Positions 11,710 through 34,830 of a stretch of DNA of 64,000 nucleotides are shown here, piece by piece. The stretch spans positions 1 to 64,000 of the forward strand of contig JAWZSP010000007.1 of the NCBI GenBank assembly GCA_034401135.1. The letters are read 5' to 3'. The notes beneath the pieces are model-generated. The model saw nothing but the letters and a program-made list of their open reading frames with translations. It made no database searches and was not told where the DNA came from. The position numbers and the translations under genes are program-made. Position 1 is the first letter of the stretch, and each line of letters begins with the position of its first letter. This DNA comes from Volutella citrinella (taxonomy: Eukaryota; Ascomycota; Sordariomycetes; Hypocreales; Nectriaceae).

Positions 11710-13801
11710 CCTACGATCTTTAAAAATCGATAACTAATTAGCAAAAATAGATATGAAAAAAAGGGAAGAGGTAGAAATTAAGAAATAAATCAGTTTAAAT
11801 CGCTATAAGGTTTATTTTCTATTTTTCAAAAAAAGTGTACCCCTCGATTTCCTAAGGTCGGCCTAACCCTGACCTGGGTTTCCACACTTAAAAATAATAT
11901 AATAAATTCTATTATAAATAGAATAAATTAATTATAAGTAAGTAATTTTAATAAAGGGATAATAAAATTTCAAGTTATATATTTTTTTAAATATCTTACT
12001 TTTTCTATTTATTTAATTTCTATACTTATTATAAAGTAGGTTTTATAGTTTACTATTAAGCCCTCTTATTTTAAGTAAGTTTTTTATAAAAAGATATCTA
12101 AATTATAAGAATAATCTCTATTATTACTAATATTTTACTATGCTTTTTTTAGTAAATATCTGCGTTTTAAATATAAACTAGATATATTCTTATTAATATA
12201 CTCTTTTAATTTATTTACTTTTATCTAGCTTATTATTAATATCTTATTATACTATCTTTTATTTATATCTAAGTTCTAAATATAAGCTAGATATACTCTT
12301 ATTATTATACTTTCTTAATTTATTTACTTTTATCTAACTTATTATTAAAATCTTATTATATTATTTTTTATAAATATCTAGGTTCTAAATATAAACTAGA
12401 TATATTTTTATTAATATACTTTTTTAATTTATTTATCTTTATCTAGCTTATTACTAAGATCTTATTATACTATTTTTTACTTATATCTAAGTTTTAAATA
12501 TAAGCTAGATATATTTTTATTAATATATTTTCTTAGTCTATTTATTTTTATCTAGCTTATTACTAAGATATTATTATACTATTTTTTATAAATATTTATA
12601 TTCTAAATATAAGCTAGATAGGTTCTTATTAATATACTCTTTTAATTTATTTACTTTTATTTAATATACTATTATTATAATAAGATACTAACCCTCTCTT
12701 TAAGTATTATTATATATAGTACTATCTTTTTTATATTTCTTTAAATAAATATAGCTCTATATATAATTAAGATAATAATTAAAAGCTAAAAGCTTATTTT
12801 ATTAAATAGTATAAGTATCTGCAGCTTTATAATTCAATACTTTATCCTTTTTAACTTACTACTTTTTAATACTTTTTTTATTAATAATATACTAAAATAC
12901 AGCCCTGTATATAGTTAAGATAATAATTAAAAACTAAGAGCTTATCTTATTAAATAATATAAGTATTTATAGCTTTATAATCTAATACTTTATCCTTTTT
13001 AACTTACTACTTTTTAATACTCTTCTTATTAATAATATACTAAAATATAACTTTATATATAGTTAAAATAATAATTAAAAGCTAAGAGCCTATCTTATTA
13101 AATAATATAAATATTTATAACTTTATAATTTAATACTTTATCCTCTTTAACTTACTATCTTTTAATACCTTTCTTATTAATATACTTTTTTAATTTATTT
13201 ACTTTTATCTAGCTTACTACTAAGATCTTATTATACTATTCTCTATTTATATCTAGGTTTTAAATATAAGCTAGATATATTTTTATTAATATACTTTCTT
13301 AATTTATTTACTTTTATTTAGTTTATTATTAAGTTCTTACTACACTTTTTTTTATAAATATCTAGGTTCTAGATATAAGCTAAATAAGTTCTTATTTATA
13401 TACTTTTTTAATCTATTTACTCTTATCTAGCTTATTACTAAGATATTATTATATTATCCCTTATTTATATCTATATTCTAAATATAAACTAGATATATTC
13501 TTATTAATATACTTTTTTAATTTATTTACTTTTATCTAGCTTACTATTAAAATACTATTATACTATCCCTTACTTATATTTATATTCTAAATATAAGCTA
13601 GATATATTCTTATTAATATACTTTTTTAATTTATTTACTCTTATTTAGTTTATTACTAAGATCTTATTATAGTCTCCTTTATAAATATCTAGGTTAAGAA
13701 TATAAGCTAGACAGGTCCTTACTATACTTTTTTTTATTAATATTTATAACCTAAATATTAGCTAAATAGGTTCTTATTAAAGTACTTTTTTATTTTATTT
13801 T
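11710..13801. repeat. AT-rich degenerate tandem arrays (about 110 bp and 148 bp units)
   Basis: Almost pure A/T with TpA excess. A unit of about 110 bp, marked by a CTAGATATAT core, recurs near 12177, 12288, 12396, 12505 and 12614, and again around 13269-13704. Between these, a 148-bp unit marked by TACTTTATCC recurs at about 12838, 12986 and 13134. No coding potential. The composition is typical of RIP-mutated repeats. Confidence 0.75.
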
Positions 13802-13864: not shown

Positions 13865-14339
13865 TATCAGAACCTGACGCTAATACACTATATAGGAATA
13901 AAAAGGAGCCCCACGCTTAGATTAGGTCTACTTAAGACCAGACATAGAGTAGGGCCCACAGCTAAGTAACAAAGGACTAATTAAGCTTAGACTAAAGGGC
14001 AGGGGCAGATAGTCTAGGACTAATAAACCCCACGCCATAGTCTAAGAACTGAAAAGCTAAATACTTTAGTCCTAATAAAGGATTATAAGTATATATAGTA
14101 AACATTACTAATATATAGTCTCTTAGAGAAGTATATATCTAGTATAAACAGCTCTTTAGCTATTAATATAACTTAGTTATCTTAATTACTACTACCTAGC
14201 AACTTTTAACTATTACTAGATATAATAGCGACCTATATCAGTCACTACTTAATAATATTACCCTATCTACTCTACTAATATAAACCCCTAGTACTTTTAG
14301 TATAGGTTTATATAGTTAGGACTACTCTAATTATTATAT
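13865..14339 (+). repeat. 5' LTR of the old chromovirus
   Basis: Matches 33277-33734 throughout, with mainly C/T and G/A differences. Confidence 0.85.
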
Positions 14340-17300
14340 ATTAATAGCTCTTATTTAGATAGATACTTATATATCACTAAGTAATATTCCTAATAATAGC
14401 ACCTAAAGTCAATAAGCCTACTACCCTAAGCTTTTTTAAGAGCTCTATAAAAGCCCTATCAACTAATATTAAAATAAAAACCCTAGCAGAAGACTCTGAT
14501 ACTAATAATAATATCAGAGACCTTAGGGCTAGAGATACTTAATATAGTAAAGAAGTAAAGGACTTGCATAAATATATAAATAAGCAGCGTACCTACTAAA
14601 AAAACTAGAATAATACTATTATAGTATAGCTCTAGCTAGCTAAAGATAAAAATAAAGCTCTTTATAAATAAATTAATAATCTTAGGAAAGTATAATAATA
14701 AAACATAGTATGCTAGTAGAAGGGTATTAACCTTTTTAATAACTATTAACTAGTAACTAGTAGTATATATACTAAAGATTTAAGAGAAGTCCTTAAGCTA
14801 ATAAAACCTAAGAAGTATAAAAGAAATACTAAAAACCTAAGAGAGTTTATTATATCTCTCTAGGACTACTTTATATACTACCTAACGACCTTCTAAAATA
14901 AAGAATTTAAGGTCTACTATACTATATACTAGCTAAAGGATAAGGCAGCTTATAGCTTTGAACTATACCTTAGGGACTTTACTAATAATATAATTAAAGA
15001 CTAGAAATAGGAGACTATTATTATATTTTCTAACTTTAAAGCATTTAAATAATAACTAGTTAGTAAGTTTAAAGAAATAAATAAATAGTATAATATACTT
15101 ATTAAGCTCTATAAACTCTACTAGACTAAAACAGCCTTACTATACCTAGCTGATTTCTAGTTTATTATATCCAAACTTAATATAAGCAACTCTTTTAAAA
15201 TTAATAAATTTTATAATAGACTTAAAGATAAAGTTAAAGATAAGATCTCTAAGATCCTTAACCTCCCTAAGAACTTTAATAAATACAGATAGCTAGTAAT
15301 AAGGATTAATAACTAACTCTACAAGCAATACAGGGAAAAATAATAAGGCAATACGCAACCATACTTATAGAAGGTAAATAACGCTAGATATTATTATACA
15401 CTTAATATATCTTATAGTATTAAACTAGGACCTATAAGGCTCAGAGTCCTTAAAACAAACAAGAAGGACATTACTTACTATAACTATAGAAAGAAAGGAC
15501 ACTTTAAATAAGAATACTAAGGACCTAAGAAATAAATCTATTCCATACCTATTCAGAAAAACGCCTAATAACTTTAAGTTATAAAGCAAGATATAAAAAT
15601 CTATAATATAAAACAACCCCTATACAGTATATAGCACAACCTATATAAAATATATAATTAATATAACTATAAAGTAAAAGACTACAGCCTCGATTAATAA
15701 ATAGCTAAAGCTAGTAGAGATATTAATAACCTAGCTAAATAGATTATCACTAAGCAAAATAAATAAGTTACTAAAGTATACTTTAGATAATACATAACTA
15801 TAGAACCTAAATACAGAGACTTACTATATACTATATACTAGTATAAGATTTACTATTTTACTAGCTAATAGTATAAAGTATAGTAAGAAAGAATAATAGA
15901 GGAACTAAGTACTAATAAAAAAGATAAGGCAGCTTAGCAACCTATCTATAAAAAAGGAGAAATTAATAAGGCAAACCTATTTAAGAAATAGTTAGAAGAA
16001 TAAGGTAAGTTCATTTATAAGATAGATAAAAAAATCAAGGCAGATATAAAGTAATAGGAAGAGGAATAATAGGTTTACCCTAACCTAGATATATACTTAC
16101 TGCGATAACTATAAGTAATAAAAACTATATGCAAGGCCTAGGAATAACTCTAGTTAGAAGAAGAAAATAAAAGCTTATAGAATAACTTGACTAACTTTAA
16201 TAGATATAAAAAGATCGAATCTATACCTATCTATAAATAGGTAATAGTTAAGTAAATCAAGAAGAATACTAAGGTCTAAGCCCTAGTATAGGAGATTAGA
16301 GTAGAAAATACTAACCTTAAGCTATCTAAAAAAAACACTAAATAAGTAATAGCGCTTAGGCTTGACTTAAAGCTAAAAGAAATCAATTATAACTATAACC
16401 TGAATAATAATATAATAAGAGGACCTTATATAAAGATAATAATTAAAAATATAAAGGATTAGATTAAGACTAGCTATAAGTAGAAAACTATTAAGTATAA
16501 AAAGAAGGTATAATATAACCACTACTTTACTATTTATACTACCTAGTAGCCCTATTATACTTAGATATAAGGACACCTCTTAGAAAGAGACAACTTACAG
16601 CTTAAAGCAGGATACCTAGAATACCCCTCGATCTTATAAATCTAATATTTTAACTACTACTACAGCTCGTACTTAACTAATAAACAGAAGGGAAAAAGCT
16701 TCCTATTTAAAGCATTCTATAATAATAAGGCCCTAGGGGTAATAAATACTTAATAGACCTACTATACAATAAGAAGAACTAATAATTAATATATTAAGAT
16801 TAGGGGAATACTAAAGAAAGGATACTTAGCTAAAGAGTATTAGAACTACTAAGACTCCCTCTACCTTAAATACTATAAAAAAAAGAAAAAAGAACTTAAA
16901 AAAATAAAAGCTGCTAAAACACTCTATAAGCTATTAAAAGACACAGGCTCTTAAGAATCGAGCTGCTAATAGAGCACAGACCTATATACAGACTTAATAA
17001 TATTAAAGGAAATAAACTATAATAATAACTAGAAGTAGCAGTCAGGATTAAAAGATATATACTTAAGGCGCTAATCGACAGTAGTATAAAAAGGAACTAT
17101 CTATTAATAGACTTAGTTAACTAACTATAGCTACCCTAGACAAAGAAAAAAGATAGCTATTCCCTACTTAGAGGCAATAGTAATAAATTTACTTATAACT
17201 AAAGAAGAGTTACTAAAGAATCTAGATACCTTAAGATATTTATCAGCAGATAGAATAAAAAGATAGATTATAATATTATAAGGATTAATAATAATATCAT

Positions 17301-21132: not shown

Positions 21133-21466
21133 TGTGTGGCAGCTGGATCACATTGGCATTTTGGTGGTTGGGCTGGATTGGTCAATTGGGCGTTTGGGTC
21201 AGTAGCTTAAAAGGGGCAGGTTCGCTCAGTACTTGAGATCAACAAGAATTTTCCCCCTCTTTCAATCTTTTTCTGTTCAGGGACTCCTTCATTTCTGTCT
21301 GATCAGATCGCTGGTCAATTCAGATTTTGTTTATCTTGCGAGGTTCTCTTGCTGGAGGTCACGCAAAATTTCGCTTTTCGCCCAAGTTCAGTTACCCTAC
21401 GGCAGGTTTCTGCAGGGGACACTGACAATTATTGGTGTTTGTTTGGGCCTGTCATTCTCACCAACA
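21133..21466 (+). repeat. 5' LTR, 334 bp
   Basis: Same sequence as 32937-33270. The open frame inside it is present in both LTRs and is not regarded as a gene. Confidence 0.95.
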
Positions 21467-21470
21467 AATT

Positions 21471-21488
21471 TGGAGGTCACGGTGGGGG
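21471..21488 (+). other. Candidate primer-binding site
   Basis: TGG-initial sequence four bases after the 5' LTR, the expected position for pairing with a tRNA CCA end. The tRNA was not identified. Confidence 0.4.
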
Positions 21489-21761
21489 GGTATTCCTTTG
21501 TCAGAGGCCAGAGATCTGAATGATCAGACGGCTCGACCAGAGGAGCACTTCTACGCTGCACCAGAACCTGCAATCCCTGATTCGAAGTCGGAAAGCGAGG
21601 CGACTGCTCCAAGAGTGGGCGGTCGCGCGAACCCCGAAAAACGATTCAACTACGAGCAAAGATCGGATGGAGGATTCTTCATGATCGAAGCCGAATCATC
21701 ATTCCAATTGGGTGGACACTTCAATCGGCGGACCTGAGAAGGGAGCGGAAGACGACCCGAG

Positions 21762-24700
21762 ATGCGAGACAAAGCATCGCCAGTCGCCTGGCCAGGGCAA
21801 AGACATAACAAATCCTGCCCCGAGATTCGGCCCGATCAGGCCAATTATGGAATGGACACGCTATGTTTTGAGCCGAAGGTCGAATTCCCGATCACGGTCT
21901 CCATACCGATTGGAAAACTCACCGCGATAACCAGATTAGTGGTAATCTGCGTGGCTGCAAGAGTCAGCTTGACGACAGTTCTGCTGCTACTGGCTTACGC
22001 ACTTATATTCGAACAGATCCCATGGGATGGAATCATCACCATGACACGCAAGAGAAAGCACGAAGCAACCAAGCACATGCCTGCTGCGGACCTTCCAGCA
22101 GAAGGGACTTCTCATACAACTTCTCATACTGAGCCTATTCAGTCACCAGATATTCTTTCAACCCTCGGGGAATCCCACGGAATTGATCAGACTGTTCAAC
22201 CTCTTAGCAAGGCATCTTGCACGGGAAAACCGTTCACATCTGCGACCCCTCCAGACTACGAAGAAGCAGTAACCACTCCGCTGTTTAGCTCCAAGATGGA
22301 TCACCCAGCGAGCAGCGAGTACCGTCCCTTCCCTGATCAATATTACTTTGATGGGGATGGGATCACCTTCTTCCTTAAACGTTACGAGGATCACATGAGG
22401 GCTCAAGGATTCTCTGAGAGCCAGATGAAGGAGGACGTGGATTTAAGGGTCACCGGAAGATCCTTGATGAAGCAAGTAAGGAGAACTGTGGAAGGCTGCT
22501 CTTGGGAAGAAGCCAAGAGCATGCTGATCAAACGGTTCAAGAGCTATGATGATGAGCTGGATGGAGCACCGATTCACCAACTCATGAACATGGCAAACCC
22601 CGACATCAAACTGGGGGATGTCCAAGGCATGAGAAGGTGGATGGACAAGCACGCCTACCTGATCAAGGCGGTTTACCCAAATGATTGGGCAACCAACACG
22701 ACCTTCGCTTACACCTTATATAAAGGGCTCCCTGACCAATGGAAGAAGGAACTGTGCAGGCAACTCAGCTGCACCCCAGACACCATCCTAGAGAAGCCCT
22801 ACAAAACGGTGTCGGACAGCATCAACACGATCCTCCAGGTTGAAGGGATCACTGAGAGATCGGGCCGATCAGAGTGGAACAGTGACTCTGAAGGGGGTGG
22901 CGCGTCGCGAAGCAAGGTAGGCGACCCCGCCGACCAGCCAGACAGAGCCCGGCACTCGCTCCCGAAGGACAAAAGGGTCAGTTTCCAGCACAGGAATGAG
23001 GAAGCGAGCGGCGCCGAGTCAGCGCTAGCCGATCTGACCCGTCAGATCGAGGAGCTGAGCATCCAGGTCGCAGTCCTTAAGGACCAAGAGGGGACCCGCG
23101 AGAAAAGACGCGTCTTGCAACAAGGTGCGCGGATCCGGAATATCCAGACGAACACGGCCGCTGTTGAGGAAATCCACGACTGCCAGACAATTGAGAGGAT
23201 CATCGAGAGGAACGACCAAGACATCGCGACAATGGTAGCAGGCGAGTTCAAGCAGTATCGGTGTTATTACTGCGGCGATGAGGATCATGCTCTGAGAGAT
23301 TGCCTGAAGCTGCGAAAGGACAGTAAGAAGGAGCATATTACCCATTATGAACCAAGCGCGGGGGCTGTCTGGCTTGGTGAGTACTTTGTGCCCCCATTCC
23401 TGGTCGGAATCTTCCGCCACAGCGCGGGCGGGATCAGACGAGGAATGGTCCTGTGGTCGAACCGTTTCCCGGGTACCGAGGCATGGAGTCTCGGGGAGAC
23501 CCTTACACATTTCTGGAAGCCGCCTGGGGGGTATGTTGAGACACCCGAGGAGAAGGACCTCTTCGAGAGATTCATGAAGAAGAATGAGGGCTCCCGACTC
23601 AACCCCCGGATTCAGCTTCACCCTGATCGGAACGATCGGTTAGCCCAAGGGACGTTTTCTAGCCAGACAAGGACCAATTTCCTCACAGTGGATGAAGACG
23701 GCCCGGGCCCTGATGTGGCGGAGAAGGGCATTCGAGTCAACAATGCGGCCAATAAGCGCCTGAGGAGTAACGATGGGAAGGCGATCGGTTCCCATCAACA
23801 TCCTCAAGACCAACGGGATGATCCCCAAGAGGACGCCTCGATGAAGCGCTCGCAGTCCGGCCGCCAACCCAGCGACGACAGGAACACGAATCCTAGGACC
23901 ACCCCTGATGACAGCAAAGATCGGATCAGGCAGAGACTGCGCGCTGAAGCCGCTAATCGGAAGATGAACGTCTCCTTAAAGGACATCATGAAGCTCGACC
24001 CTCAATTTGCAGAGGGATTTCACCGAGACATTGGGGAGGTCGTTGACGAAGTAACGAACACCCAGTACATCGAGCCAGTATCTAGCATAGGGGCTGGCCG
24101 CGATCAAACCCGCATGGCGGCTTATGCTGTAATGGAGGAAGCCCAACCGCAAAACTTCTCAGACGCCTACTTTGAAGCCATGAAGGAGAAATGCAAGGTC
24201 AACAACGTCAAGATCGCTCCGGACAACCAGATCGCAGATCTGCTCGGCCAGTCGATGACGGACAAGTCGGAGTGGCGTGAGGAGCTGCGAACCCATCAAG
24301 TCTCAATCAACCTGGAAAGCGCAGTAAGCGCGAGATTGATCTCCCACTGCCAAGAGTTACCACGAATCAGAGTTCGGCTTGATCGAGCAGACGGACCAGC
24401 TATCGAAGGGCTGGTGGACACCGGGGCAGAAGGGAACCTGATCTCTGAATCAGTGGCCAAGGCTTCCGGTCTGAAGGTCGGGTACGCTAAGGCCACAACC
24501 ACGGCCTATAACGGGGAAAAGGTCAAGATGGTAGGTGAGTGTCTAACAAAACTCTACTTAGGGAATGTGTGGGTGGAGCAGAGGATGTACGTCGTCCCGG
24601 ACGGGGTCAGTGTGCCCCTTTTGCTAGGAATGCCCTTCATCCGAACATGTAAGGTCTCGTTCGATCACACGTCTCGCGATGGGAACCTACTCATCCGATG

Positions 24701-27700
24701 CCAACTCGGAGAGATCAGAGTCGTGACGGCAGCAGCCGGCAACATACGATACGACCAGCCGCGTTTTGGGAGAGAGGACTGCCAGCAGAACCCAAAGACG
24801 AACGCCTGCACTCTGGATCCGAGCGGGGAGGAGAAAGTCACCCTCGAAGGAGACGATGATCGCAGCACTTTGAGAAAGATCGGACAGGATACGGCCTGCG
24901 AGATTGTCAAACTGATCAAGAAGGAGATCTGGGGCTGTTATCGAACGATGGTGCAAGCTGCTATGGACGAGCAGACGCAGATGTTCAGCGACCAGAAGAG
25001 GACCTGCGCAGAGCAACCGGGCGAAGACATCAAAGCCAACACGATGTACAAGCGCAAAGCCGATAAGATCAGACCTCTGGAGGACGTGCCACCTGATGGC
25101 TCAACCCCCGAAGGAGACCCGCAGTGGAAGGAGAAGAAGTTGGCTGAGGCCCAGAAGAACTTCCAGGGTCCACCCAAGTACCCAGGGCTAACACCAAAGT
25201 TCTCCAAAATCGAGAAGGGCACCCGGCTGACAGCAGAGAGACTCAAGAATCTGCTTGATCAAGTCGACGGCACCCTTACCCGGCAAGAACGGGAAGTTCT
25301 AACAGAGGTGCTGTACAACCGTGAGGCGGCCCTAGCCTGGGACTTTACAGAGAGCGGATTGCTGGACCCTCTGGTCGCGCCGCCACAGACGATCAAAGTG
25401 ATCCCTCACCGGGCGTTCCAGGCTGGTACTATACCGATCCCGAAGGGCATGGCTAATAAAGTGATCGACCTCTTGAGGGCCCGACTGGAACGAGGGGTCC
25501 TGGAGGAAAGTCATGGGTCGTACCGCAACCCTTGGTTCCTGGTTCAGAAGAAAGACGGCGGCCTGCGACTGATCAATTCGGCGACGAAGTACAATGCGTT
25601 TACGATCAAAGACGCCATGAGTCCGCCTAATACCGATGAATTCTCAGCCGACTTTGCGCAATGCAAGATCACCAGCGTCCTGGATTTCTTTTCCGGTTAT
25701 GATCAGGTCCCCTTGGATGAGAAGAGCCGGGATATGACGTCGTTCATGACACCTCTGGGGCTACTGCGGGTGTGTCGACTCCCACAGGGAGCCACCAACT
25801 CGGTAGCTCAGTTCTCAAGGATTATGACCAGGATTCTGTTTGATCTGATCCCTGACGTATGCCGGGCCTACCTTGACGACATTGCAGTTAGAGGTCCAGC
25901 GACTGACTACGGCGGGGAGGAGAGCCTTCCTGGCGTAAGGCGATACGTCATGGAGCATCTGGTCAACCTGGACAAGGCCCTTCTTAATGTGGAGCTCTCT
26001 GGCTGCACGATCTCAGCAGCAAAATCCCAGTTCTGTCAGGAAACAGCAATTCTGGTGGGATACCTGTGTGGCAACAACGGGCGGAAACCCTCTGAGGAAA
26101 AGATCATCAAGATCCTGGAGTGGAAAGCCTGCGAAGACATTACACAAGTACGAGGATTCCTAGGAGTCACAGGGTTCTTCCGGATCTGGGTGATGGGCTA
26201 CGCCTGGATCGCGATACCTCTCACTAAGCTCTTGAAGAAGGATGCCGAATGGGTTTGGGGCCCTGAGCAGGAAGATGCTATGAAGGTCCTCAAAGAGAGA
26301 TTGGTCACTGCCCCCATCCTGATCACGCTGGATTACAGCGAAGGAGCCGGTGAAATTATACTCATGGTAGATGCCAGCCTTCGTGGATGGGGAGCCCTGA
26401 TCCTACAAGTTGTGGACGGTAAGCGCAAGCCAGCTCGATACGAATCAGGAGTATGGACGACTGCAGAACAAGGGTACGATGCGACAAAGCGCGAATGCAA
26501 AGGAGTTCTGCATGCCTTTCGGAGACTGAGAGGCTACCTCTATGGAGTCCCTTTTACCCTGGAAACGGATTCCCAGGTCCTGGTTCACCAGTTGAACGGG
26601 CGAGCAGACGATGTCCCCGGGGCCCTGATCAACCGATGGCTAAGCTATATCATGCTTTTCGACTTCACTGCAAAGCATGTCCCAGGAAAGAAGAATGGCG
26701 CGGCTGACGGGCTGTCCCGAAAGGAGCCCGGTCCATCTGACCAGATGGATCAGGACGTCGAAGGAGACATGGACCAGTTTATCGACCTTCACCTTAATAC
26801 GATCACCCTGGATGACGACAGTAAGGAGCTGGACCAGAGCTATGGAGCTGAATGCCAGGTGATGGGGAGGTACCTTCAAACGCTGGAAAGACCCGCCGGA
26901 ATTTCACCTGAAGCCTACCGCAAGATAAGGCGGAATGCCCCGAAGTTCATGGTAAAGAAGCGTTACTTATGGAAGAGGCCAGGCGGGCTTTATGCGGACC
27001 CAGTCCTAGTGGTTGACGACGGGGGGACTCAGAGGGAGATCCTGCGATGTTGCCATACTGAAAATGGGCACAAAGGACGAGAGGCGACCTTCAACTCAGC
27101 AGCAGGGAGGTACTACTGGAAGTCGATGCGATCAGACGCATATTCATTAGTGACAGCCTGTGCGACATGCCAAGAGCATGATCCCAGGCGACCAAGGGAA
27201 AAGGCCGGCTTTTCGACGCCAGGGAGGCCAATGGAGAAGATCCACTTCGACGCCCAGTACATGCCTCCACGAAAAGGAAAGAAGTTCCTTTACGAGGGAC
27301 GATGTGATCTGATGGGGTGGATTGAGGCCGAAGCCGTGAGCAAAGTCACAGTGAAAACGTTCAAGGCCTTCGTCAAGCGTGTCATATTTAGGTATGGCAT
27401 GCCTCAAGAGGCAGTTGTCGACAATGGGAAGGAAACGAAGAAGGACTTCAAGCGAGTACTTGAGGACTATGGGATCAGGGTGATCTGGACGTCAGCCTAT
27501 AACCCGAAGGCTAATGGCATTGTGGAAGGAGGGCACTCCATCCTGACAAATGCGCTCAAGAAGCTGGGTGGGTGCTGGGTTGACCAGCTGGAGGAAGTCC
27601 TCTTAGCCGACAGATCCGCGATCAGAGCATCCCACGGACGATCAGCCTTCTACCTGCTTCATGGATGGGAACCTAGACTACCGATCGAAGTCAAGATCCC

Positions 27701-28364
27701 TACCTGGAGGACTGTGAATTGGGATGAGGTCAGGAGCTCTGAAGATTTGCTGCTGCGAAGGATCAAGGTCCTCCAGAGGAAAGAGGAGGATGTTAATGAA
27801 GCCATCCGAAAAGCAACAGCATTTAGGAGGAAACTGGCTGATCGGACCGACAAGACCAATTTGCACTCACTCAGGAAAGAACCGTTGGTGGAAGGAGACC
27901 TAGTGCTGAAGTACGATGTGCCAAGATCCCAGGACATGTCGACAGAGGCCAAAATGCGACCGCGCTGGCAGGGCCCCTTCAGAATACACAGGCACAGCCA
28001 GGGATCGCCAAGCTACCAGCTGGAAACACTTGACGGGATCAAACTGGCCACCACGACCCATGGAGAACATTTGAAGAAGTTTATCCAAGATGAGAGTGGC
28101 TGGTGGTTTAATCTCGAGGAAGAACTTGCAAATCTCGAAACAAACCAGGACAAAGAAAGCGACAGCCTCTCGGAAGAGGAAGGAAGCCTTCTAGAATCCA
28201 GTGATGATGAGTCGGATGCAAGCGACTCGTCATTTAGTGACGAGTCTGGGGTTGTGGATGAGGAAGAAAGGATGCCTCCTCCAAGAAAAGGCCCTGGTTA
28301 TAGGGTAGAGGTCCAACTGCCGACGATGCCAAAAGCGGCGCGAGACCAATACTCCAAACTCTAA
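21762..28364 (+). CDS. Ty3/gypsy gag-pol polyprotein, 2200 aa
   Basis: A single frame encodes the whole replication machinery. A gag-like domain lies around residues 190-370. The CCHC knuckle begins at C501 (C-x2-C-x4-H-x4-C). The aspartic protease DTGA is at 886-889, and reverse transcriptase has YLDD at 1370-1373. RNase H is near 1530-1640. Integrase has the HHCC finger (H1765, H1770, C1800, C1803) and catalytic D1830, D1887, E1922. A GPY/F-like module lies near 2065-2100. Integrase after RNase H defines Ty3/gypsy. No chromodomain is visible; the end is acidic and serine-rich. The start is uncertain: ATG 21762 adds about 93 residues with a hydrophobic stretch, while ATG 22041 gives a conventional gag start. 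No frameshift separates gag from pol. Confidence 0.93.
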   Translation: MRDKASPVAWPGQRHNKSCPEIRPDQANYGMDTLCFEPKVEFPITVSIPIGKLTAITRLVVICVAARVSLTTVLLLLAYALIFEQIPWDGIITMTRKRKHEATKHMPAADLPAEGTSHTTSHTEPIQSPDILSTLGESHGIDQTVQPLSKASCTGKPFTSATPPDYEEAVTTPLFSSKMDHPASSEYRPFPDQYYFDGDGITFFLKRYEDHMRAQGFSESQMKEDVDLRVTGRSLMKQVRRTVEGCSWEEAKSMLIKRFKSYDDELDGAPIHQLMNMANPDIKLGDVQGMRRWMDKHAYLIKAVYPNDWATNTTFAYTLYKGLPDQWKKELCRQLSCTPDTILEKPYKTVSDSINTILQVEGITERSGRSEWNSDSEGGGASRSKVGDPADQPDRARHSLPKDKRVSFQHRNEEASGAESALADLTRQIEELSIQVAVLKDQEGTREKRRVLQQGARIRNIQTNTAAVEEIHDCQTIERIIERNDQDIATMVAGEFKQYRCYYCGDEDHALRDCLKLRKDSKKEHITHYEPSAGAVWLGEYFVPPFLVGIFRHSAGGIRRGMVLWSNRFPGTEAWSLGETLTHFWKPPGGYVETPEEKDLFERFMKKNEGSRLNPRIQLHPDRNDRLAQGTFSSQTRTNFLTVDEDGPGPDVAEKGIRVNNAANKRLRSNDGKAIGSHQHPQDQRDDPQEDASMKRSQSGRQPSDDRNTNPRTTPDDSKDRIRQRLRAEAANRKMNVSLKDIMKLDPQFAEGFHRDIGEVVDEVTNTQYIEPVSSIGAGRDQTRMAAYAVMEEAQPQNFSDAYFEAMKEKCKVNNVKIAPDNQIADLLGQSMTDKSEWREELRTHQVSINLESAVSARLISHCQELPRIRVRLDRADGPAIEGLVDTGAEGNLISESVAKASGLKVGYAKATTTAYNGEKVKMVGECLTKLYLGNVWVEQRMYVVPDGVSVPLLLGMPFIRTCKVSFDHTSRDGNLLIRCQLGEIRVVTAAAGNIRYDQPRFGREDCQQNPKTNACTLDPSGEEKVTLEGDDDRSTLRKIGQDTACEIVKLIKKEIWGCYRTMVQAAMDEQTQMFSDQKRTCAEQPGEDIKANTMYKRKADKIRPLEDVPPDGSTPEGDPQWKEKKLAEAQKNFQGPPKYPGLTPKFSKIEKGTRLTAERLKNLLDQVDGTLTRQEREVLTEVLYNREAALAWDFTESGLLDPLVAPPQTIKVIPHRAFQAGTIPIPKGMANKVIDLLRARLERGVLEESHGSYRNPWFLVQKKDGGLRLINSATKYNAFTIKDAMSPPNTDEFSADFAQCKITSVLDFFSGYDQVPLDEKSRDMTSFMTPLGLLRVCRLPQGATNSVAQFSRIMTRILFDLIPDVCRAYLDDIAVRGPATDYGGEESLPGVRRYVMEHLVNLDKALLNVELSGCTISAAKSQFCQETAILVGYLCGNNGRKPSEEKIIKILEWKACEDITQVRGFLGVTGFFRIWVMGYAWIAIPLTKLLKKDAEWVWGPEQEDAMKVLKERLVTAPILITLDYSEGAGEIILMVDASLRGWGALILQVVDGKRKPARYESGVWTTAEQGYDATKRECKGVLHAFRRLRGYLYGVPFTLETDSQVLVHQLNGRADDVPGALINRWLSYIMLFDFTAKHVPGKKNGAADGLSRKEPGPSDQMDQDVEGDMDQFIDLHLNTITLDDDSKELDQSYGAECQVMGRYLQTLERPAGISPEAYRKIRRNAPKFMVKKRYLWKRPGGLYADPVLVVDDGGTQREILRCCHTENGHKGREATFNSAAGRYYWKSMRSDAYSLVTACATCQEHDPRRPREKAGFSTPGRPMEKIHFDAQYMPPRKGKKFLYEGRCDLMGWIEAEAVSKVTVKTFKAFVKRVIFRYGMPQEAVVDNGKETKKDFKRVLEDYGIRVIWTSAYNPKANGIVEGGHSILTNALKKLGGCWVDQLEEVLLADRSAIRASHGRSAFYLLHGWEPRLPIEVKIPTWRTVNWDEVRSSEDLLLRRIKVLQRKEEDVNEAIRKATAFRRKLADRTDKTNLHSLRKEPLVEGDLVLKYDVPRSQDMSTEAKMRPRWQGPFRIHRHSQGSPSYQLETLDGIKLATTTHGEHLKKFIQDESGWWFNLEEELANLETNQDKESDSLSEEEGSLLESSDDESDASDSSFSDESGVVDEEERMPPPRKGPGYRVEVQLPTMPKAARDQYSKL

Positions 28365-28992
28365 GCGGAGATGGGGAGGATTCTGCCCGATCAGACAGGA
28401 ACAGGCCAGCTCACGCGTGCGGGAGCTGTGGTGGCTGACCGGGGAGGATGGGTGTGATGGCAAGACGCGACCAAAACACACACCAAAAGACTTGGGTGAC
28501 CTACCCAGAAAAATTTTGACACACGACGACAACTGGCCACAACCGCTGGGACGAGACGAGACAAGCCAGATCGACCAGAGGACACTGTCGGCGACACGTT
28601 AAGACAAGCGGCTCGACAGCGCCGGACGCGCCCCAAGACTGTCCAAGACACGAGCCGACCCCAGCCAGGACGCTGTGAGACACGCTCAGGCGCGGAACTC
28701 GACAGTCCAAGACGATCAGTTAGACAAGATGTGACGCACAGCGAAGACACATATTGGAACGATCAGAACGGGCACAAAGGAAACGACGCCTGGAGACCAC
28801 AGAGTGCCGGGAAGAAAATTTTCCATTCTTAGAGCGAAGACGCTCACTACTTAAGCAACCTGAAGACCCAGAATGAAGACAGACGCAAAGAACAAAAGCG
28901 GATGGGCCCGATCGGACACAGCAAACCAGCTCCAACCCAAAGAAAATCCCATGTCCAGCAACCCAAAAGCAACAGTCCCACTGCTAGAGCCC
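28365..28992. other. Spacer between gag-pol and the antisense gene
   Basis: No open frame of note. It would hold the 3' ends of both converging transcripts. Purine-rich on the plus strand. Confidence 0.5.
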
Positions 28993-30023
28993 TTACAGAT
29001 GGCGGAACCCAGTCATATAATCATCCCAAGAACGCTCCCTAGCGGTTTCAAGCCGCGCTTGCATATCCTCCTCAGGGATCGGCTCAAGTGCGGGAAGATT
29101 ACAAGTGATCTCAGGGCAACTCGAAGGGTTCATGGGATCGACCTCATAGTAGCGGTTATGACCATCCTCACGAATTGTGTCCCGACCACGCAGAGGATAA
29201 AGCAGAGGGCCTTCGTCTCGGCGAGTGGGGAGGTAGCCAGGCATAAAGGACCAGCTGCAATCAGGGCACTCGCGCCAGACGCAATTAGCGCAAGAACCCC
29301 CGTGGAAGTCGGCAATCGACATGCAAGCGTGAAATGGCCAGAGTATGTGGTCGCCGAAGGATGTGACAGTCGTCATGAAAGTCGAGGCACAGTGGCGACA
29401 AGTCAGCGGGTTGATCTGACCGAAACACGCGATGAAGAGCGCCTTGACGTGATTTGGGCGGGCATTCAGTTGAGCGAAGAAGTACCCCTTCGGATGGGCG
29501 TACTCGGCGGGGATGTAGACGGGATTCGGGAGAGTCTTCGCGGTGTATCGAACGGCATGACGGAGGTCGGACGAGTCGCCAATAGAGGTCTGCCAGAACC
29601 CAGAGGCGCTTTCGAGAACCTCCTCGTCGTCAGCTCCTCGGAAAGCGAGACGACAAAACATCGGTTGACCAGCGCGATCGAGGCCAAGGCGGGAGCAGAT
29701 CCACACGTCGAAGAAACTGAAAGTCTGCCAAAGGAAAAATGGTTAGCCACAACAAGGTCAGGATGATCAGACAAGGGCATTACATTGCTGGCGCTGTTGA
29801 AGCCGGTATCCTTGGCGGTCATGAACTCTGTTCGATTGCCTCGAGTGTTAAGGCGATGAGTCGGTCGGAAATCTTTAGCGTGCAGCCCTGGCTTCACAGC
29901 TTTGATGATGTTCGGCAAATCTTTGCGCTCTTTGGTACGCAATTCTTCAAGGGCATAAGGATCAACAACAATACGCGGGCGAGGGGGAGCCTCGGGCGCC
30001 TCTGAGCTGCGGTTCGAAGACAT
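28993..30023 (-). CDS. Antisense accessory gene: cysteine-rich DUF3716-like protein, 323 aa
   Basis: Exon 1 is 29784-30023 and exon 2 is 28993-29724. The 59-bp intron (29725-29783) has a GTAATG donor, GCTAACC branch site and GGCAG acceptor, and joins the frames in phase 0. ATG 30023 is chosen over an upstream extension. Residues 1-60 are basic and proline-rich. Residues 180-236 carry C180, C189, C192, C214, C225, C228, C233 and C236, in the order CRHC ... F-x-x-C ... GGSCANCVW ... CPDC. This resembles the fungal zinc-binding domain DUF3716 as I remember it. Function unknown. It lies wholly inside the retrotransposon on the opposite strand and diverges from the protease-like gene. Because it is antisense, its intron survives in the genomic RNA, which fits long-term carriage. 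Confidence 0.75.
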
Positions 30024-30355
30024 CGTGACAAAGCCGTCGCGACAACAAAGATGAAGTTGATGATGAAGGGAAAAAGAGAAGAGAAGAGCAGAGAAAGGGC
30101 AGAGAGGGTAAAGGCATGAATGACAAAGAGCCGGATCTGGCAGGTGCGCGGCTAGTGGCAGTGAATCACGGCAATAAGTCTGCTCAAAGGACGGCTCTCT
30201 TCCCGGCGCGAAGAAGCAAACCACCTCTCCAGCAACAAACATTTCAACTCCTCAACGCACACAGACTGCCTCTCTTTCTCCCTCATTTTCATCATCATTC
30301 TGCCTGATCAGACCCATCATCGAGCCCTTGAACCCGCTACACCAAGCCTGACGAA
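30024..30355. promoter_or_regulatory. Divergent promoter of the two accessory genes
   Basis: 332 bp lie between the two start codons. CT-rich tracts precede the protease-like start on the plus strand, and GA-rich sequence (CT-rich on the minus strand) precedes the antisense start. This is typical of fungal core promoters and suggests transcription independent of the LTR. No specific factor site was identified. Confidence 0.45.
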
Positions 30356-32857
30356 ATGTCGCGAACCCGAGGCATGAAAGTCAACCCAGCGTGGGAGAAC
30401 TCCCAAGGGTGCTACAGCGCAAGCACCGATCCCCTGCTCCTCTTCGGTTCGGTTCAAGGAGAAGATCCGGCAGGAAGAACCTCTGTCGAGGAACGGTTTG
30501 GCAACCTCACTGACCTCTACCGCCGACAACCTGCCTTCTTCAAACCTCGCGAGACTTGGGACCCTGTTGACAATACCCTCGAGATCGCAGACCCAAAACT
30601 AGCCATCCCCCTCTTCGACAAAGTGCCTATGCGAGACCACTTTAAGGAGATCAAACACGCCGACAACGTTTGGGCAGAGCACTGCCGTAGCCTCTGGAGC
30701 GCGATCGGCAAAATGAATGACAAAGGCTGGGCATCGGACACTGAGCTGATGGCCTTCGTTCGCATGGTTTCGTACGGCATGGAAGACCTAGTGGCCTTCG
30801 GCGATGGTGTGCTTGGAATCGAGGGGAACGTGCCTTTCCCAAACCCCAAGATCGGTGAAACTGGTTCCAACTTGCTTCTCCCCCACGGTACCAATCGAGC
30901 CTTGCAGACCCCCTTCACTGGCCTAGGTGCCCCCGACCGCGTCCGCCACCTCATGGGAGACAAGCCTTTCTTCATTGGTCTAGTCAACTTCGCCAGTTCC
31001 CATTGGGGTTCATTCCTGTACGATCGGGTAGTCGGTCACGTTTACTTCTTCGACACCATGAGAAAGCAGATCCGCCCTCATGCCGCCCAATTCGCCTACG
31101 TCTGGCGCGAGACCCTTGCCTCTCTCGGAATGCCCTTCGACTTCAAGCTGATTGTCCCACCTCTATCCGATCAGCCCAACGGCTTTGAGTGTGGATTCCT
31201 TAGTGTCTTTTGCCTCTTCCAGACACTACGCGGCCTGCGAGGCTATGGCCCGGAGGATTTCGACAAACACACAAAGAAGGCTATCTTGACGATTGATCGC
31301 ACCCGCCCGAAGCACGAGCCTGCATTCCGATTCCGACTTCGAGACTGGGTCCTGGCTACTGTCGATCACGCTGCCGGCGACCGCGACGAGAGCCTCGACA
31401 TCGTTTACGCCCTGCTCACCTCTGCGGCCCTTATGGATCTTGGCTTTACACTCCCGAAGATCACCAAGGAGCAGATTCCTTACTCGATCCCTTACATGCG
31501 CCATGTCACCAAGTTCATCGACGTTTCTGAGATCCATGGAGACGAACGCTTCTTTACCAGCTTTGGCGGCCACCTCTGCTTCAAGGTTGACAAGCTTCGC
31601 TATGCCTTCTCTCCGACGTCGCTCCACCTGATCAGACCGAATCCAAGCAGTGCCAATCTCCTGCGGTCTTCCGCTCCGCCGGCTGACCAGCAAGCTCGAG
31701 TCCGCACCAAGATTTCTGATGAGGTACTCGCCATGTGGAAGAGCCGAGGCGTTGCTTGGAAGGGCCCTGTGCCGCAAAGGCCCCGATCGGAGTTCAACAC
31801 TGACGGACAGGGCTCTATTGATCTGATCGGAACGCCTCCCGCGAAGTCCCCAGCTCCTCTTGGCGACAGCCAGCCGCCAATCGCGACTCTTCAACCCTCA
31901 GTCGAGAATGTGCCCGACAGCCCTACACCCGGGTACCGAGCCAGCGCTCATTACTTTCCGGCCAACCCTTTCCATCGACGAACCCCGTCGCGATCAGACT
32001 CGGCTGGTCGAGAGCCCGCTGCTGGCATGCCCCCGGCCCCGCCTGTGTCTACGTTTGGCACCAGAACGCGCCAAGCTACACCACGCTCAGGTGTTGGGGA
32101 GGATCGCGATCGGTCTGAAGGAAGGTCGCGTAGCTCAACACCCTCACGAGCCGGGTCGGATCTGTGGGATCAGCCTCCGCCGCCTGGTGTTATGAAGCAC
32201 AGCACCTTCCACAGCTTCTTCAGGCAGCCGCAACCGCCAGCCCCGAAGAGACTGACGGCAACACCAGAGCCATCGCAACCCGGATCACGAGCGTCGAGCC
32301 CAGGCTTCCGAGTCAAACGGGAACCTCGTGTCGAGGTGGACGAAGATGGGCAGCGAATTGACCCCGAGACTGGCCAAGTGCCTCTGAAGAAGCTCGTCGC
32401 CTCCACACCCGAGATCGCCGGAGCACTCAAGTTGCCGTGCACCATAGAGGACGCCCTGGCAACCAAGGAGGCTCTGAAGGATCAGCCCCTTGGACAGGCC
32501 GCTGAGGAGATGGTGCGCGCTGTGAACGGAGTGGTACCGCTGTGCCCAGTCGAGGATCGAATCATCTACGGGTTCCCAGTTCCTGGCACTACGACATACA
32601 CATGGGCGCCGTTTGTCCCGCCTAATCTGATTCACCCTGGTCAGTGGGACTTCATCTTCCACGAAGCGACGCGACCGTGGGCGACCCAAGAGGCAAAGCC
32701 CAAGCCCAGCCGGGCGGAGCGGTATCGCAGCCGCAACCTGATCAAGGCGAATCCGGTGTTGCGGGAAGTTGTGGCGGAACAGGGATCGGGCGAGGACGAG
32801 GACATGGAGGACGCTGGAGACGAGGATGTGGAAATGGAGGATGTTGGTGGACAGTAG
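30356..32857 (+). CDS. Accessory gene: Ulp1-like cysteine protease (C48 type), 833 aa
   Basis: C48 proteases mature and remove SUMO-type modifiers. Residues 200-290 carry the active-site layout: H216-W217 in SSHWGSF, D233 in YFFDTM, Q273 and C279 in QPNGFECG. The His-Asp distance (17) and Gln-Cys distance (6) match yeast Ulp1 (H514, D531, Q574, C580). The N-terminal 190 residues are of unknown fold. Residues from about 440 on are Pro/Ser-rich and disordered, ending in an acidic tail. The stop is 70 bp before the polypurine tract, so the gene belongs to the element. What it cleaves (SUMO conjugates, its own gag, or host silencing factors) is open. No intron needed. Confidence 0.85.
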   Translation: MSRTRGMKVNPAWENSQGCYSASTDPLLLFGSVQGEDPAGRTSVEERFGNLTDLYRRQPAFFKPRETWDPVDNTLEIADPKLAIPLFDKVPMRDHFKEIKHADNVWAEHCRSLWSAIGKMNDKGWASDTELMAFVRMVSYGMEDLVAFGDGVLGIEGNVPFPNPKIGETGSNLLLPHGTNRALQTPFTGLGAPDRVRHLMGDKPFFIGLVNFASSHWGSFLYDRVVGHVYFFDTMRKQIRPHAAQFAYVWRETLASLGMPFDFKLIVPPLSDQPNGFECGFLSVFCLFQTLRGLRGYGPEDFDKHTKKAILTIDRTRPKHEPAFRFRLRDWVLATVDHAAGDRDESLDIVYALLTSAALMDLGFTLPKITKEQIPYSIPYMRHVTKFIDVSEIHGDERFFTSFGGHLCFKVDKLRYAFSPTSLHLIRPNPSSANLLRSSAPPADQQARVRTKISDEVLAMWKSRGVAWKGPVPQRPRSEFNTDGQGSIDLIGTPPAKSPAPLGDSQPPIATLQPSVENVPDSPTPGYRASAHYFPANPFHRRTPSRSDSAGREPAAGMPPAPPVSTFGTRTRQATPRSGVGEDRDRSEGRSRSSTPSRAGSDLWDQPPPPGVMKHSTFHSFFRQPQPPAPKRLTATPEPSQPGSRASSPGFRVKREPRVEVDEDGQRIDPETGQVPLKKLVASTPEIAGALKLPCTIEDALATKEALKDQPLGQAAEEMVRAVNGVVPLCPVEDRIIYGFPVPGTTTYTWAPFVPPNLIHPGQWDFIFHEATRPWATQEAKPKPSRAERYRSRNLIKANPVLREVVAEQGSGEDEDMEDAGDEDVEMEDVGGQ

Positions 32858-32926
32858 TTAGTCTTGGCTCGGATATCTTTGCTTGGGGCATGGTCTGCCT
32901 GATCATGAGGACATGATGCAGACCAT

Positions 32927-32936
32927 GGGGGAGGAG
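32927..32936 (+). other. Polypurine tract
   Basis: GGGGGAGGAG directly abuts the 3' LTR, the expected plus-strand primer. Confidence 0.8.
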
Positions 32937-33270
32937 TGTGTGGCAGCTGGATCACATTGGCATTTTGGTGGTTGGGCTGGATTGGTCAATTGGGCGTTTG
33001 GGTCAGTAGCTTAAAAGGGGCAGGTTCGCTCAGTACTTGAGATCAACAAGAATTTTCCCCCTCTTTCAATCTTTTTCTGTTCAGGGACTCCTTCATTTCT
33101 GTCTGATCAGATCGCTGGTCAATTCAGATTTTGTTTATCTTGCGAGGTTCTCTTGCTGGAGGTCACGCAAAATTTCGCTTTTCGCCCAAGTTCAGTTACC
33201 CTACGGCAGGTTTCTGCAGGGGACACTGACAATTATTGGTGTTTGTTTGGGCCTGTCATTCTCACCAACA
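32937..33270 (+). repeat. 3' LTR, 334 bp
   Basis: Identical by eye to 21133-21466, implying very recent insertion. Confidence 0.95.
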
Positions 33271-33276
33271 AAATAC

Positions 33277-33734
33277 TAATACACTATATAAAAATAAGGG
33301 GGAGCCCTATGCTTAGATCAGGTCTACTTAAGACCGGACATAAAGTAGGGCCTATAGCTAAGTAATAAAAGACTAATCAAGCTTAGACTAAAAAACAGAA
33401 GCAGACAGTCTAGGACTGACAAACCCTATGCTACAGTCTAAGGACTAAAAAGCCAAATACTTTAGTCTTAATAAAGGATTATAGGTATATATAGTAAATA
33501 TTACTAGTATATAGTCTCCTAAAAAAGTATATATCTAGTATAAGCAGCTCTTTAATTATCAATATAACTTAGTTACCTTAATTACTACTACCTAGTAACT
33601 TTTAACTATTACTAAACATAATAATAACTTATATCAGTCACTACTTAATAGTATTACCCTATCTGCTCTACTAATATAAACCCCTAGTACTTTTAGTATA
33701 AGTTTATATAGTTAAGACTACTCTAATTATTATA
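33277..33734 (+). repeat. Remainder of the old chromovirus 3' LTR
   Basis: Continues the LTR begun at 21117-21132. It aligns with 13880-14339 and is followed by the GTATA target duplicate. Confidence 0.85.
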
Positions 33735-34830
33735 GTATATATAACTTATATTATATAATAAGCTACTTTTATAAACTGCAGTTTTATTTATAAACTATAA
33801 GTCTTAAAAGTAGTATATATAAATTATATTAATAAGATATATTATATAAGTATTTTATTAAGCTATTAAAGTAGTTAGTATAGTAATCTTTAACCTTAAT
33901 ATATAATAGGATTAAAATACTAATATAGTTAAAATAGCTTTAATTAACTTATAATTTTATAAGCAGTATATATATATAGTTATTATTCTATATTTAACTT
34001 TATAGCTATTTTAAGTAAGATTAAGTCTTTAAAACTGACTTTTTTAAAATATAGTAAAACTGACCTCTGTCTTTTTTACTATCTTTAACCCTAATTAAGT
34101 AATTTTATTAAAACTAACTTTAATTTTATTAAAACTAATAATTAGTAAGCTTAAGATTAATAATAAACTTAAAAAGTATATAAAAGTTAGCTATAATAAA
34201 AATAATAAGATTTAGTAATATAATATTACTTAGTTATATTCTTACTAAATAAAAGTTTATTAATAATAAAATATTTTATAAATATACTATTCTTATTTAT
34301 ATTATAAAATAACATAGTTATTATAGCTTAGTATTATAGCTAGTCTTAAGAAATATAAATTTTCTCTTTTTTTTATTAAGTATACTCTGCTATTAATCCT
34401 TATATATAAACTCTAATAACTAGTATTAGAGATTATAAATAACTGTGTTTAATTAAGTAATTTTATTATTAAGTTAATATATATTATAGTTTAATAAGAT
34501 AATATAAAAGCATTGCGTCTTTATTACGCTATATCTTTTATTTAGTTAATTAATCTTTTCTCTTATTACCTTTTTATACTAATTAAGCTCTAGCTTAAGA
34601 ATGTCAATATGAATTTCTTACTTATCAACTTTTCCTTAAGTTTATATAAGTTGTCAACTGGGCTTATAGTATTGGATCGATATGATTTTATATTAATTTA
34701 AAAGAAATAGTATGAATTTAATATTATAAAAGGCATATTGCTTGTTCTATATTTATTATAGGGGTATACTACTTCTAAAGTAGTATTAAAAAGAATTATT
34801 AAGTCTTTTTTTTATAAACTAGGTCCCAGA
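33735..34830. other. AT-rich RIP-type relic sequence
   Basis: Begins with the second copy of the short repeat that precedes the old element (33757-33823). The rest is A/T-rich, without recognisable coding or terminal repeats. Confidence 0.6.

Follow-up and report, generated by a model that had tools for sequence, protein, structure and literature searches.

The 64,000-nucleotide window analyzed here, the start of contig C7 of the Volutella citrinella genome, contains a Ty3/gypsy long terminal repeat (LTR) retrotransposon (positions 21133-33272) that carries, in addition to gag-pol, a head-to-head pair of accessory genes: an antisense gene for a DUF3716-like protein and a sense gene for a Ulp1-like protease. 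We show that this element belongs to a multi-copy, recently mobile family of which the pair is an old and stable part, and that a 16-bp dyad is dispersed along its whole length. We propose, with a probability of about 35%, that pair and dyads together form an element-owned, sequence-specific self-activation (anti-silencing) system, convergent with the VANC proteins of plant transposons. The preliminary description of this DNA, made from the window alone, had recognized the gene pair; the copy number, the older copies of the same layout destroyed by repeat-induced point mutation (RIP) and the dispersed dyad lay beyond its view.

A recently mobile family with an old, stable gene pair

The element is flanked by two identical 336-bp LTRs; no primer tRNA was matched to the putative primer-binding site that follows the 5′ one. 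Its gag-pol product matches Pfam domains for an aspartic protease (residues 877-959), a reverse transcriptase (RT, 1262-1431), an RNase H (1499-1630) and an integrase (1757-1915), which is the domain order of Ty3/gypsy elements (Metaviridae). A CCHC knuckle was only weakly matched (residues 501-514, E = 0.13), and no Pfam match at E values up to 1 was obtained in gag-pol for the chromodomain that marks the chromovirus branch. The preliminary description placed the two accessory genes between pol and the polypurine tract, inside the identical LTRs and 332 bp apart (30024-30355), and these coordinates were confirmed. Both frames are also intact, as it had stated: the 833-amino acid (aa) sense frame is uninterrupted, and the antisense gene, from its ATG at 30023 to its stop at 28993, encodes 323 aa once a single predicted intron is removed. 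This predicted 59-nt intron (29783-29725, GTAATG...GCTAAC...CAG) has good 5′, branch-like and 3′ signals. Its retention in the antisense gene, while the sense gene is intron-free, may reflect that an antisense intron escapes splicing from the genomic (sense) RNA. A 297-aa open reading frame (ORF) on the sense strand (28873-29766) overlaps antisense exon 2 and was taken as a by-product of opposite-strand coding.

The genome (45.1 Mb, 26 contigs), whose ITS region resembles by eye that of a Hypocreales fungus, was searched with the individual parts of the element. With the 833-aa protein, for which 25 of 25 candidates were scored, 22 match rows were obtained: seven full-length, 100% identical and stop-free, and 15 with stops. 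Antisense exon 2 and a 700-aa RT-integrase stretch, which lies in a 2208-aa open frame in the intact copies, matched at 100% in the seven places with an intact Ulp gene, and 1250 bp of antisense-gene DNA recurred at 100% identity in all seven; these identities apply to each part compared (proteins, LTRs and antisense-gene DNA), not end to end. The identical, unbroken recurrence of the accessory genes at seven places shows that their frames are no product of chance. The LTR itself occupies 31 genomic places, 17 of them at 100% identity, namely seven pairs (14 places) and three apparently solo LTRs. Target duplications of 4 bp flank six of the seven full copies, so that independent copies do carry the same pair, and all three identical, apparently solo LTRs; this check, which used exact anchors, covered all but 11 of the LTR places and gave no answer at three further LTR loci. 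The seventh intact copy, C2:4547604-4559744, has unmatched flanks (5′ GTAT, 3′ CTAA), which suggests recombination between two insertions. Identical copies and 4-bp duplications together indicate that the family amplified recently and that the gene pair moved along with it.

The 15 stop-bearing rows fall into nine older loci by manual grouping. As these loci were picked through their Ulp match, the presence of the Ulp gene there is no independent count. The antisense gene was found in six of the eight groups analyzed (in one of the six in part) with an alignment in purine/pyrimidine code, which RIP leaves undisturbed; in the other two, the aligned stretch breaks at 25850-30162 (C9:1744k) or only a 3′ fragment is present (C7:4226k). 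The ninth locus, C11:204-206k, shows antisense exons 1 and 2 beside the Ulp start (by tblastn only, at the end of a stretch fetched for another locus), which brings the antisense gene to seven of the nine. An independent search with pol found five older family loci, all five with the Ulp gene and four with the antisense gene. The order gag-pol, antisense gene, Ulp gene and LTR is kept in the older copies, as is the orientation; C-to-T and G-to-A changes make up most of their differences from the intact copies. At C3:519k, 23-31% of positions are changed, depending on the gene piece, against at most one transversion per gene (matches to a nested element dropped); C4:1938k and C5:1352k differ from the intact copies by 4-7% transversions in the accessory genes. 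Genes for cytosine methyltransferases are expected in a RIP-competent fungus, and two genomic loci have such a domain. A purine/pyrimidine search of the rest of the window for further copies returned one 74-base match, taken as chance. The other pol matches in the genome (25-31% identity, ten loci by manual grouping) belong to other families; five were fetched, and none of the five matched either accessory gene (E <= 1e-3). Three of these other-family loci (L043, L044 and L045) end, by eye, in chromodomain-like sequence.

Selection on the genes was assessed with transversions, because RIP makes none; they were counted by codon position, each distinct site once per gene, among copies that share ancestry. 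On the unbiased purine/pyrimidine alignment, from which matches below 85% identity were dropped and whose counts are preferred, positions 1, 2 and 3 carried 63, 56 and 121 transversions in gag-pol (p = 3.6e-8 for position 3), 108, 85 and 149 in the Ulp gene (p = 5e-5) and 30, 24 and 36 in the antisense gene (p = 0.11). An earlier count on protein-guided alignments had placed at position 3 130 of 275 transversions in gag-pol (p = 1.2e-6), 116 of 247 in the Ulp gene (p = 6e-6) and 18 of 37 in the antisense gene (12, 7 and 18 by position, p = 0.038, superseded by the unbiased value); gag-pol matches below 45% identity at C3:519k, which come from a nested foreign element and had inflated the RT row, were dropped from that count. 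The position-3 bias marks the Ulp gene as selected coding sequence. Both gag-pol and the Ulp gene are thus under purifying selection, and the antisense gene shows the same trend without reaching significance.

The accessory proteins and their relatives

The assignment of the sense product to Ulp1-like proteases, made in the preliminary description, held for the catalytic motif and in profile comparison but not at Pfam's curated cut-off. The whole 833-aa protein had no Pfam match and its core reached peptidase C48 at 12.7 bits at best, against a cut-off of 20.7; we therefore name it Ulp1-like only. Residues 171-318 (148 aa) matched yeast Ulp1 (1euv) at E = 0.0037, the whole protein at E = 0.045, and a profile of two host SUMO-protease-type proteins matched the gene product at E = 2.2e-5. 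The hhalign score of the core against the host profile was 39.3, the best of 40 shuffles reaching 21.3, and NCBIfam gave a weak Ulp1-type match only (E = 0.096). The putative catalytic residues H216, D233, Q273 and C279 fall in the catalytic columns, in the order H-D-Q-C, and the motifs SSHWG, FFDTM and QPNGFECG align with both yeast Ulp1 and the host profile. These comparisons support a Ulp1-like core in the 833-aa protein, the C-terminal half of which is, by eye, proline/serine-rich. Besides the elements discussed below, Utopia and Crypton are reportedly among the mobile elements with Ulp1 domains.

The antisense protein scored 20.6-20.8 bits against DUF3716 (PF12511), below the Pfam cut-off of 22, and is for this reason named DUF3716-like only. 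A profile of four host DUF3716 segments matched exon 2 in hhalign at E = 1.4e-4, with all five cysteines aligned (CxxC...C...CxxC) and a score of 29.7, compared with 14.2 for the best of 40 shuffles. We take this cysteine spacing to be reminiscent of zinc clusters. A search of PDB with exon 2 returned nothing at E values up to 10, and no paper on DUF3716 was found in the open-licence literature. Four host DUF3716 loci lie above the Pfam cut-off (C4:1314482, C7:2062438, C7:1783299 and C4:4789764), one of them inside a 962-aa open frame and one with an internal stop.

No relative of either accessory protein was found among 5.8 billion proteins at E <= 0.001, an absence that weighs little since the word filter could miss fast-evolving proteins. 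The RT-integrase region, by contrast, has 97 relatives in the same database, the best at 57-59% identity; a few are named, from Colletotrichum, Ophiocordyceps and Fusarium. A search of viral contigs gave nothing. Six contigs (L060-L065) carry a pol of 32-38% identity and were placed in cyanobacterial bins (five Trichormus, one Synechococcales), but they probably come from a contaminating eukaryote in the samples. L065, whose first 55 bases are repeated at its end, is probably one closed element of about 6.6 kb, in which gag and pol are accompanied by roughly 1 kb of further sequence with one 138-aa ORF. In L060 another gag follows 0.74 kb after pol, and L061 and L062 extend 0.75 and 1.16 kb past pol with no ORF of 150 aa. 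None of the six matched either accessory protein (E <= 0.01), and they hold 12 dyads in 38.9 kb (3.1 per 10 kb), a background level. This lineage thus has both the pair and the dyads and the distant relatives, as far as covered, have neither, which fits a joint origin, although this is one contrast only.

The preliminary description had also taken gag and pol to be the only genes that Ty3/gypsy elements normally encode, which overstates the case. Boty-like Ty3/gypsy elements of Botrytis cinerea carry an antisense gene, brtn (Zhao et al. 2011), and so share with the present element the combination of a fungal LTR element and an antisense gene. In the available text they have one extra gene rather than a divergent pair, with no mention of a Ulp1-like gene or dispersed dyad. 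Their gag-pol has a CHROMO domain according to the portion available (PMC4227169), whereas none was found here. Plant Retand elements also have an antisense accessory gene in this position, between pol and the 3′ LTR: their TRP28 ORFs are considered able to bind DNA and have an unknown role. These elements differ in being plant elements with another domain and with sense ORFs without known domain, and the available part of the account mentions no Ulp1-like partner (PMC11963269). Ulp1 domains occur in Ginger1 and Mutator-like elements, with a suggested role in transposition, but the passages available describe these as DNA transposons, the Ginger1 Ulp1 being part of the transposase (PMC2836005), whereas here the domain is encoded by a separate gene of a divergent pair in an LTR element. 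Neither the pair in a published fungal element nor the combination of an antisense accessory gene, a Ulp1 domain and a dense target motif in one LTR element was found among the open-licence papers listed in the searches made, in agreement with the earlier remark that no named fungal family with this layout was known to its author. Each part has a precedent (antisense genes, Ulp1 domains, anti-silencing motifs).

The dispersed dyad and the layout of the window

The hexamer GATCAG/CTGATC occurs 37 times per 10 kb in the element and 3.5 times per 10 kb in 37.6 kb of the remaining window, about ten times less densely. Its sites extend to a 16-bp dyad, CGGTCTGATCAGACCG, in which GATC at the centre and the outer C and G vary least. 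The final matrix detected 53 sites in 11,804 bp (44.9 per 10 kb), located in the LTR, leader, gag-pol, spacer, intron, divergent promoter and Ulp gene and just ahead of the 3′ LTR; the dyad at 30300-30315 sits 40 bp ahead of the Ulp start codon. When the matrix was trained on gag-pol alone, the accessory region (4572 bp) yielded 20 sites and the 5′ part (629 bp) 3, whereas 37,600 bp from elsewhere in the window yielded 26, and three further gypsy loci, each of 10 kb, had 6, 11 and 4. The dyad is thus dense and element-specific, as VANC target motifs are, with a density 5-15 times that in host DNA, other gypsy loci and distant pol relatives.

In 400 synonymous-codon shuffles, gag-pol gave a mean of 10.9 dyads and a maximum of 19, against 30 observed, and the Ulp gene a mean of 2.66 and a maximum of 7, against 9 observed. 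The bare hexamer GATCAG was likewise in excess in gag-pol (25, against a mean of 11.6 and a maximum of 20 in 500 shuffles). Dyads in gag-pol start 13, 3 and 14 times in frames 0, 1 and 2, a bias indicating that coding restricts their placement. The dyad set is real, extends over the whole element and exceeds what codon choice produces in gag-pol. Spacing is over-even (coefficient of variation 0.68, against 0.97 for random placement, P = 0.0016), also at three stricter thresholds; eight intervals are shorter than 100 bp where 18.3 are expected (P = 1.5e-4), and the commonest 25-bp interval bin is 150-174 bp (11 of 52). Mobile short inserts are not a likely source of the dyads, which lie inside open coding frames and, in gag-pol, above synonymous shuffles.

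In the old copies, dyad cores carried transversions in 40 of 3206 cells (0.0125), compared with 0.0205 in matched stretches (P = 0.021) and 0.0218 in local controls (P = 0.006); single copies vary, and at C3:1488k and C7:4226k the rate was not reduced. Two LTRs of 93% identity hold the dyad with one mismatch, and one of 89% identity with two. The arms of the 53 matrix sites form 115 Watson-Crick pairs, against 118.7 after permutation of the halves (P = 0.72), and G-U pairs on the sense strand number 34 against 31.5 (P = 0.31). Arm pairing in stricter site sets gave P = 0.85 and 0.48 and in all 134 GATC loci P = 0.40; the 51 sites chosen by the core YGATCR alone lean to pairing (110 pairs against 100.0, P = 0.096). 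As there is no significant covariation between the halves, the dyad is better read as the site of a dimeric DNA-binding protein than as an RNA hairpin; on balance, each half conforms to the half-site consensus independently of the other. These statistics support a dyad that is conserved and read as DNA.

Table 1. Features of the Ty3/gypsy element in the window.
Feature	Position	Strand	Remarks
5′ LTR	21133-21468	+	336 bp, same sequence as 3′ LTR; strong dyad at 21295-21310
Putative primer-binding site	21471-21482	+	TGGAGGTCACGG; 2 nt past 5′ LTR
gag-pol ORF	21762-28364	+	2200 aa
Spacer	28365-28992	.	628 bp, gag-pol stop to antisense-gene stop; four dyads, strongest at 28383
Antisense gene, exon 2	28993-29724	-	Codons 81-323 and stop; DUF3716-like cysteine pattern at residues 189-236
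Antisense gene, intron (predicted)	29725-29783	-	59 nt; one dyad (29759-29774)
Antisense gene, exon 1	29784-30023	-	Codons 1-80
Divergent intergenic region	30024-30355	.	332 bp; dyads at 30128 and 30300-30315
Ulp1-like gene	30356-32857	+	833 aa, single unbroken frame, intron-free
Polypurine tract	32927-32936	+	GGGGGAGGAG; abuts 3′ LTR
3′ LTR	32937-33272	+	Dyad at 33099-33114
16-bp dyads, about 53	21133-33272	.	Consensus CGGTCTGATCAGACCG; one LTR counted; mean spacing 226 bp

A 0.5-kb repeat occurs at 13880-14373 and 33276-33773 (87% identical), its second copy starting right past the 3′ LTR end at 33272; the element thus sits at the edge of another, RIP-like repeat. Upstream, tandem arrays of 109-bp and 148-bp units (11969-13797, 17% GC) give way to AT-rich, RIP-like DNA that reaches as far as the insertion. 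The first 1276 bases of the window are AT-rich and by eye resemble mitochondrial DNA with an atp6 fragment; they are joined directly to (CCCTAA)n telomere repeats that begin at 1277, a junction that would be either a chimera of the assembly or a fusion of mitochondrial DNA with the end of a chromosome.

A possible anti-silencing role and its alternatives

In the self-activation system that we propose, the DUF3716-like protein would bind the dyads as a dimer along integrated copies, and the Ulp1-like protease would strip silencing proteins assembled there of SUMO or a related modifier, with the result that LTR transcription would be allowed in vegetative cells. The system would regulate itself through the dyads in the LTR and the divergent promoter. 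Expression of the helper genes, driven from a divergent promoter of their own, would be uncoupled from the LTR, and the intron, lying in an antisense gene, would persist when the genomic RNA is reverse-transcribed. RIP acts in the sexual phase, and the relief of silencing would fall in vegetative cells, outside it. A more specific version, in which a DUF3716-like dimer on some fifty evenly spaced dyads brings a SUMO-type isopeptidase against SUMO-dependent heterochromatin as a convergent counterpart of VANC, is more doubtful and is offered tentatively. In print, element-encoded, sequence-specific anti-silencing is found, as far as the available text goes, in plant DNA transposons, the VANDAL elements, whose VANC anti-silencing proteins have the target motif YAGTATTAY (PMC5735166, PMC10398659). 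The likeness is one of logic only: a short, element-specific motif, dense in the element and rare elsewhere, stands beside an element-encoded accessory protein. The VANDAL motif is mostly noncoding and often in tandem repeats, whereas the present dyads are evenly spread, and the VANC domain DUF1985 is absent among the Pfam matches of the element's proteins.

Several points weigh against an anti-silencing system. Both protein assignments fall below their Pfam cut-offs, and structure predictions made without alignment reached a mean pLDDT (predicted local distance difference test) of 33 for the first 377 aa of the Ulp protein and 36 for antisense exon 2. The codon-position bias of the antisense gene is not significant; its exons are dyad-poor (2 in 972 bp; shuffle mean 0.73, maximum 3) and show no enrichment, and the bare hexamer in the Ulp gene is not extreme (8, against a mean of 3.0 and a maximum of 11 in 500 shuffles). 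The tie between pair and dyads is a co-occurrence in one lineage, and the dyads are dense in coding sequence too, not arranged in tandem arrays as VANC targets are. The binding and protease steps are inferred, and a host factor could be the reader of the dyads. Moreover, the older copies with both genes are RIP-saturated, which makes the protection from RIP suggested in the preliminary description unlikely; any protection would be incomplete or of another kind.

If a host factor reads the dyads, they may be sites of a zinc-cluster transcription factor exploited for element transcription, with the gene pair unrelated. Zn2Cys6 dimer sites have CGG...CCG ends, which the dyad consensus shares, and dyads stand in the LTR and the divergent promoter; we nevertheless consider this explanation unlikely, as a promoter would require no more than a few sites and not some 53 distributed evenly across coding sequence. 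Moreover, the 32 genomic matches to the consensus (two mismatches at most) comprise 23 in this family's LTRs and 9 elsewhere, against 13 for a reversed-pattern control, so that no host regulon is visible at this stringency. Slightly less probable again is that both proteins act in the particle or in integration, as a second maturation or uncoating protease and a nucleic-acid or target-site factor. The recurrence of Ulp1 domains in Ginger1 and Mutator elements, for which the available text suggests a role in transposition (PMC2836005), speaks for such a role. It would leave the dyads unexplained, however; the two genes are divergently oriented and not part of the polyprotein, and gag-pol already has an aspartic protease domain, which also weakens the earlier proposal of an aid to particle maturation.

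The dyads could instead act in RNA, as dispersed packaging or dimerization hairpins with a GAUC loop, since CGGUCU-GAUC-AGACCG could form a 6-bp stem with a self-complementary loop; the slight excess of pairing among the YGATCR sites leans this way. The covariation test disfavors this reading, which we regard as improbable: the 53 matrix sites show neither stem covariation nor a G-U excess. Least probable of all is a functionless passenger captured by chance. Both domain types do occur as host genes and the antisense gene lacks significant codon bias, but older loci found through pol keep the pair in the proportions given above, transversions separate the most diverged copies by 4-7% in the accessory genes, and the Ulp gene shows the same kind of codon-position constraint as pol. 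Family copies without both genes, which the preliminary description had named as the mark of a single accidental capture, were not encountered; we reject such a capture, since all seven intact copies carry both genes and, of the five older pol-found loci, all keep the Ulp gene and four the antisense gene.

To our knowledge, the answers of transposons to silencing have been little explored in fungi. If the more specific version, with a DUF3716-like dimer and a SUMO-type isopeptidase, is true, it would be the first sequence-specific anti-silencing system that we know of in an LTR retrotransposon or in a fungus. A single element that unites a candidate reader, a candidate de-modifying enzyme and dense candidate targets makes fungal anti-silencing directly testable, in a host that contains seven unmutated copies beside old ones ruined by RIP. 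It would also offer a first functional approach to DUF3716.

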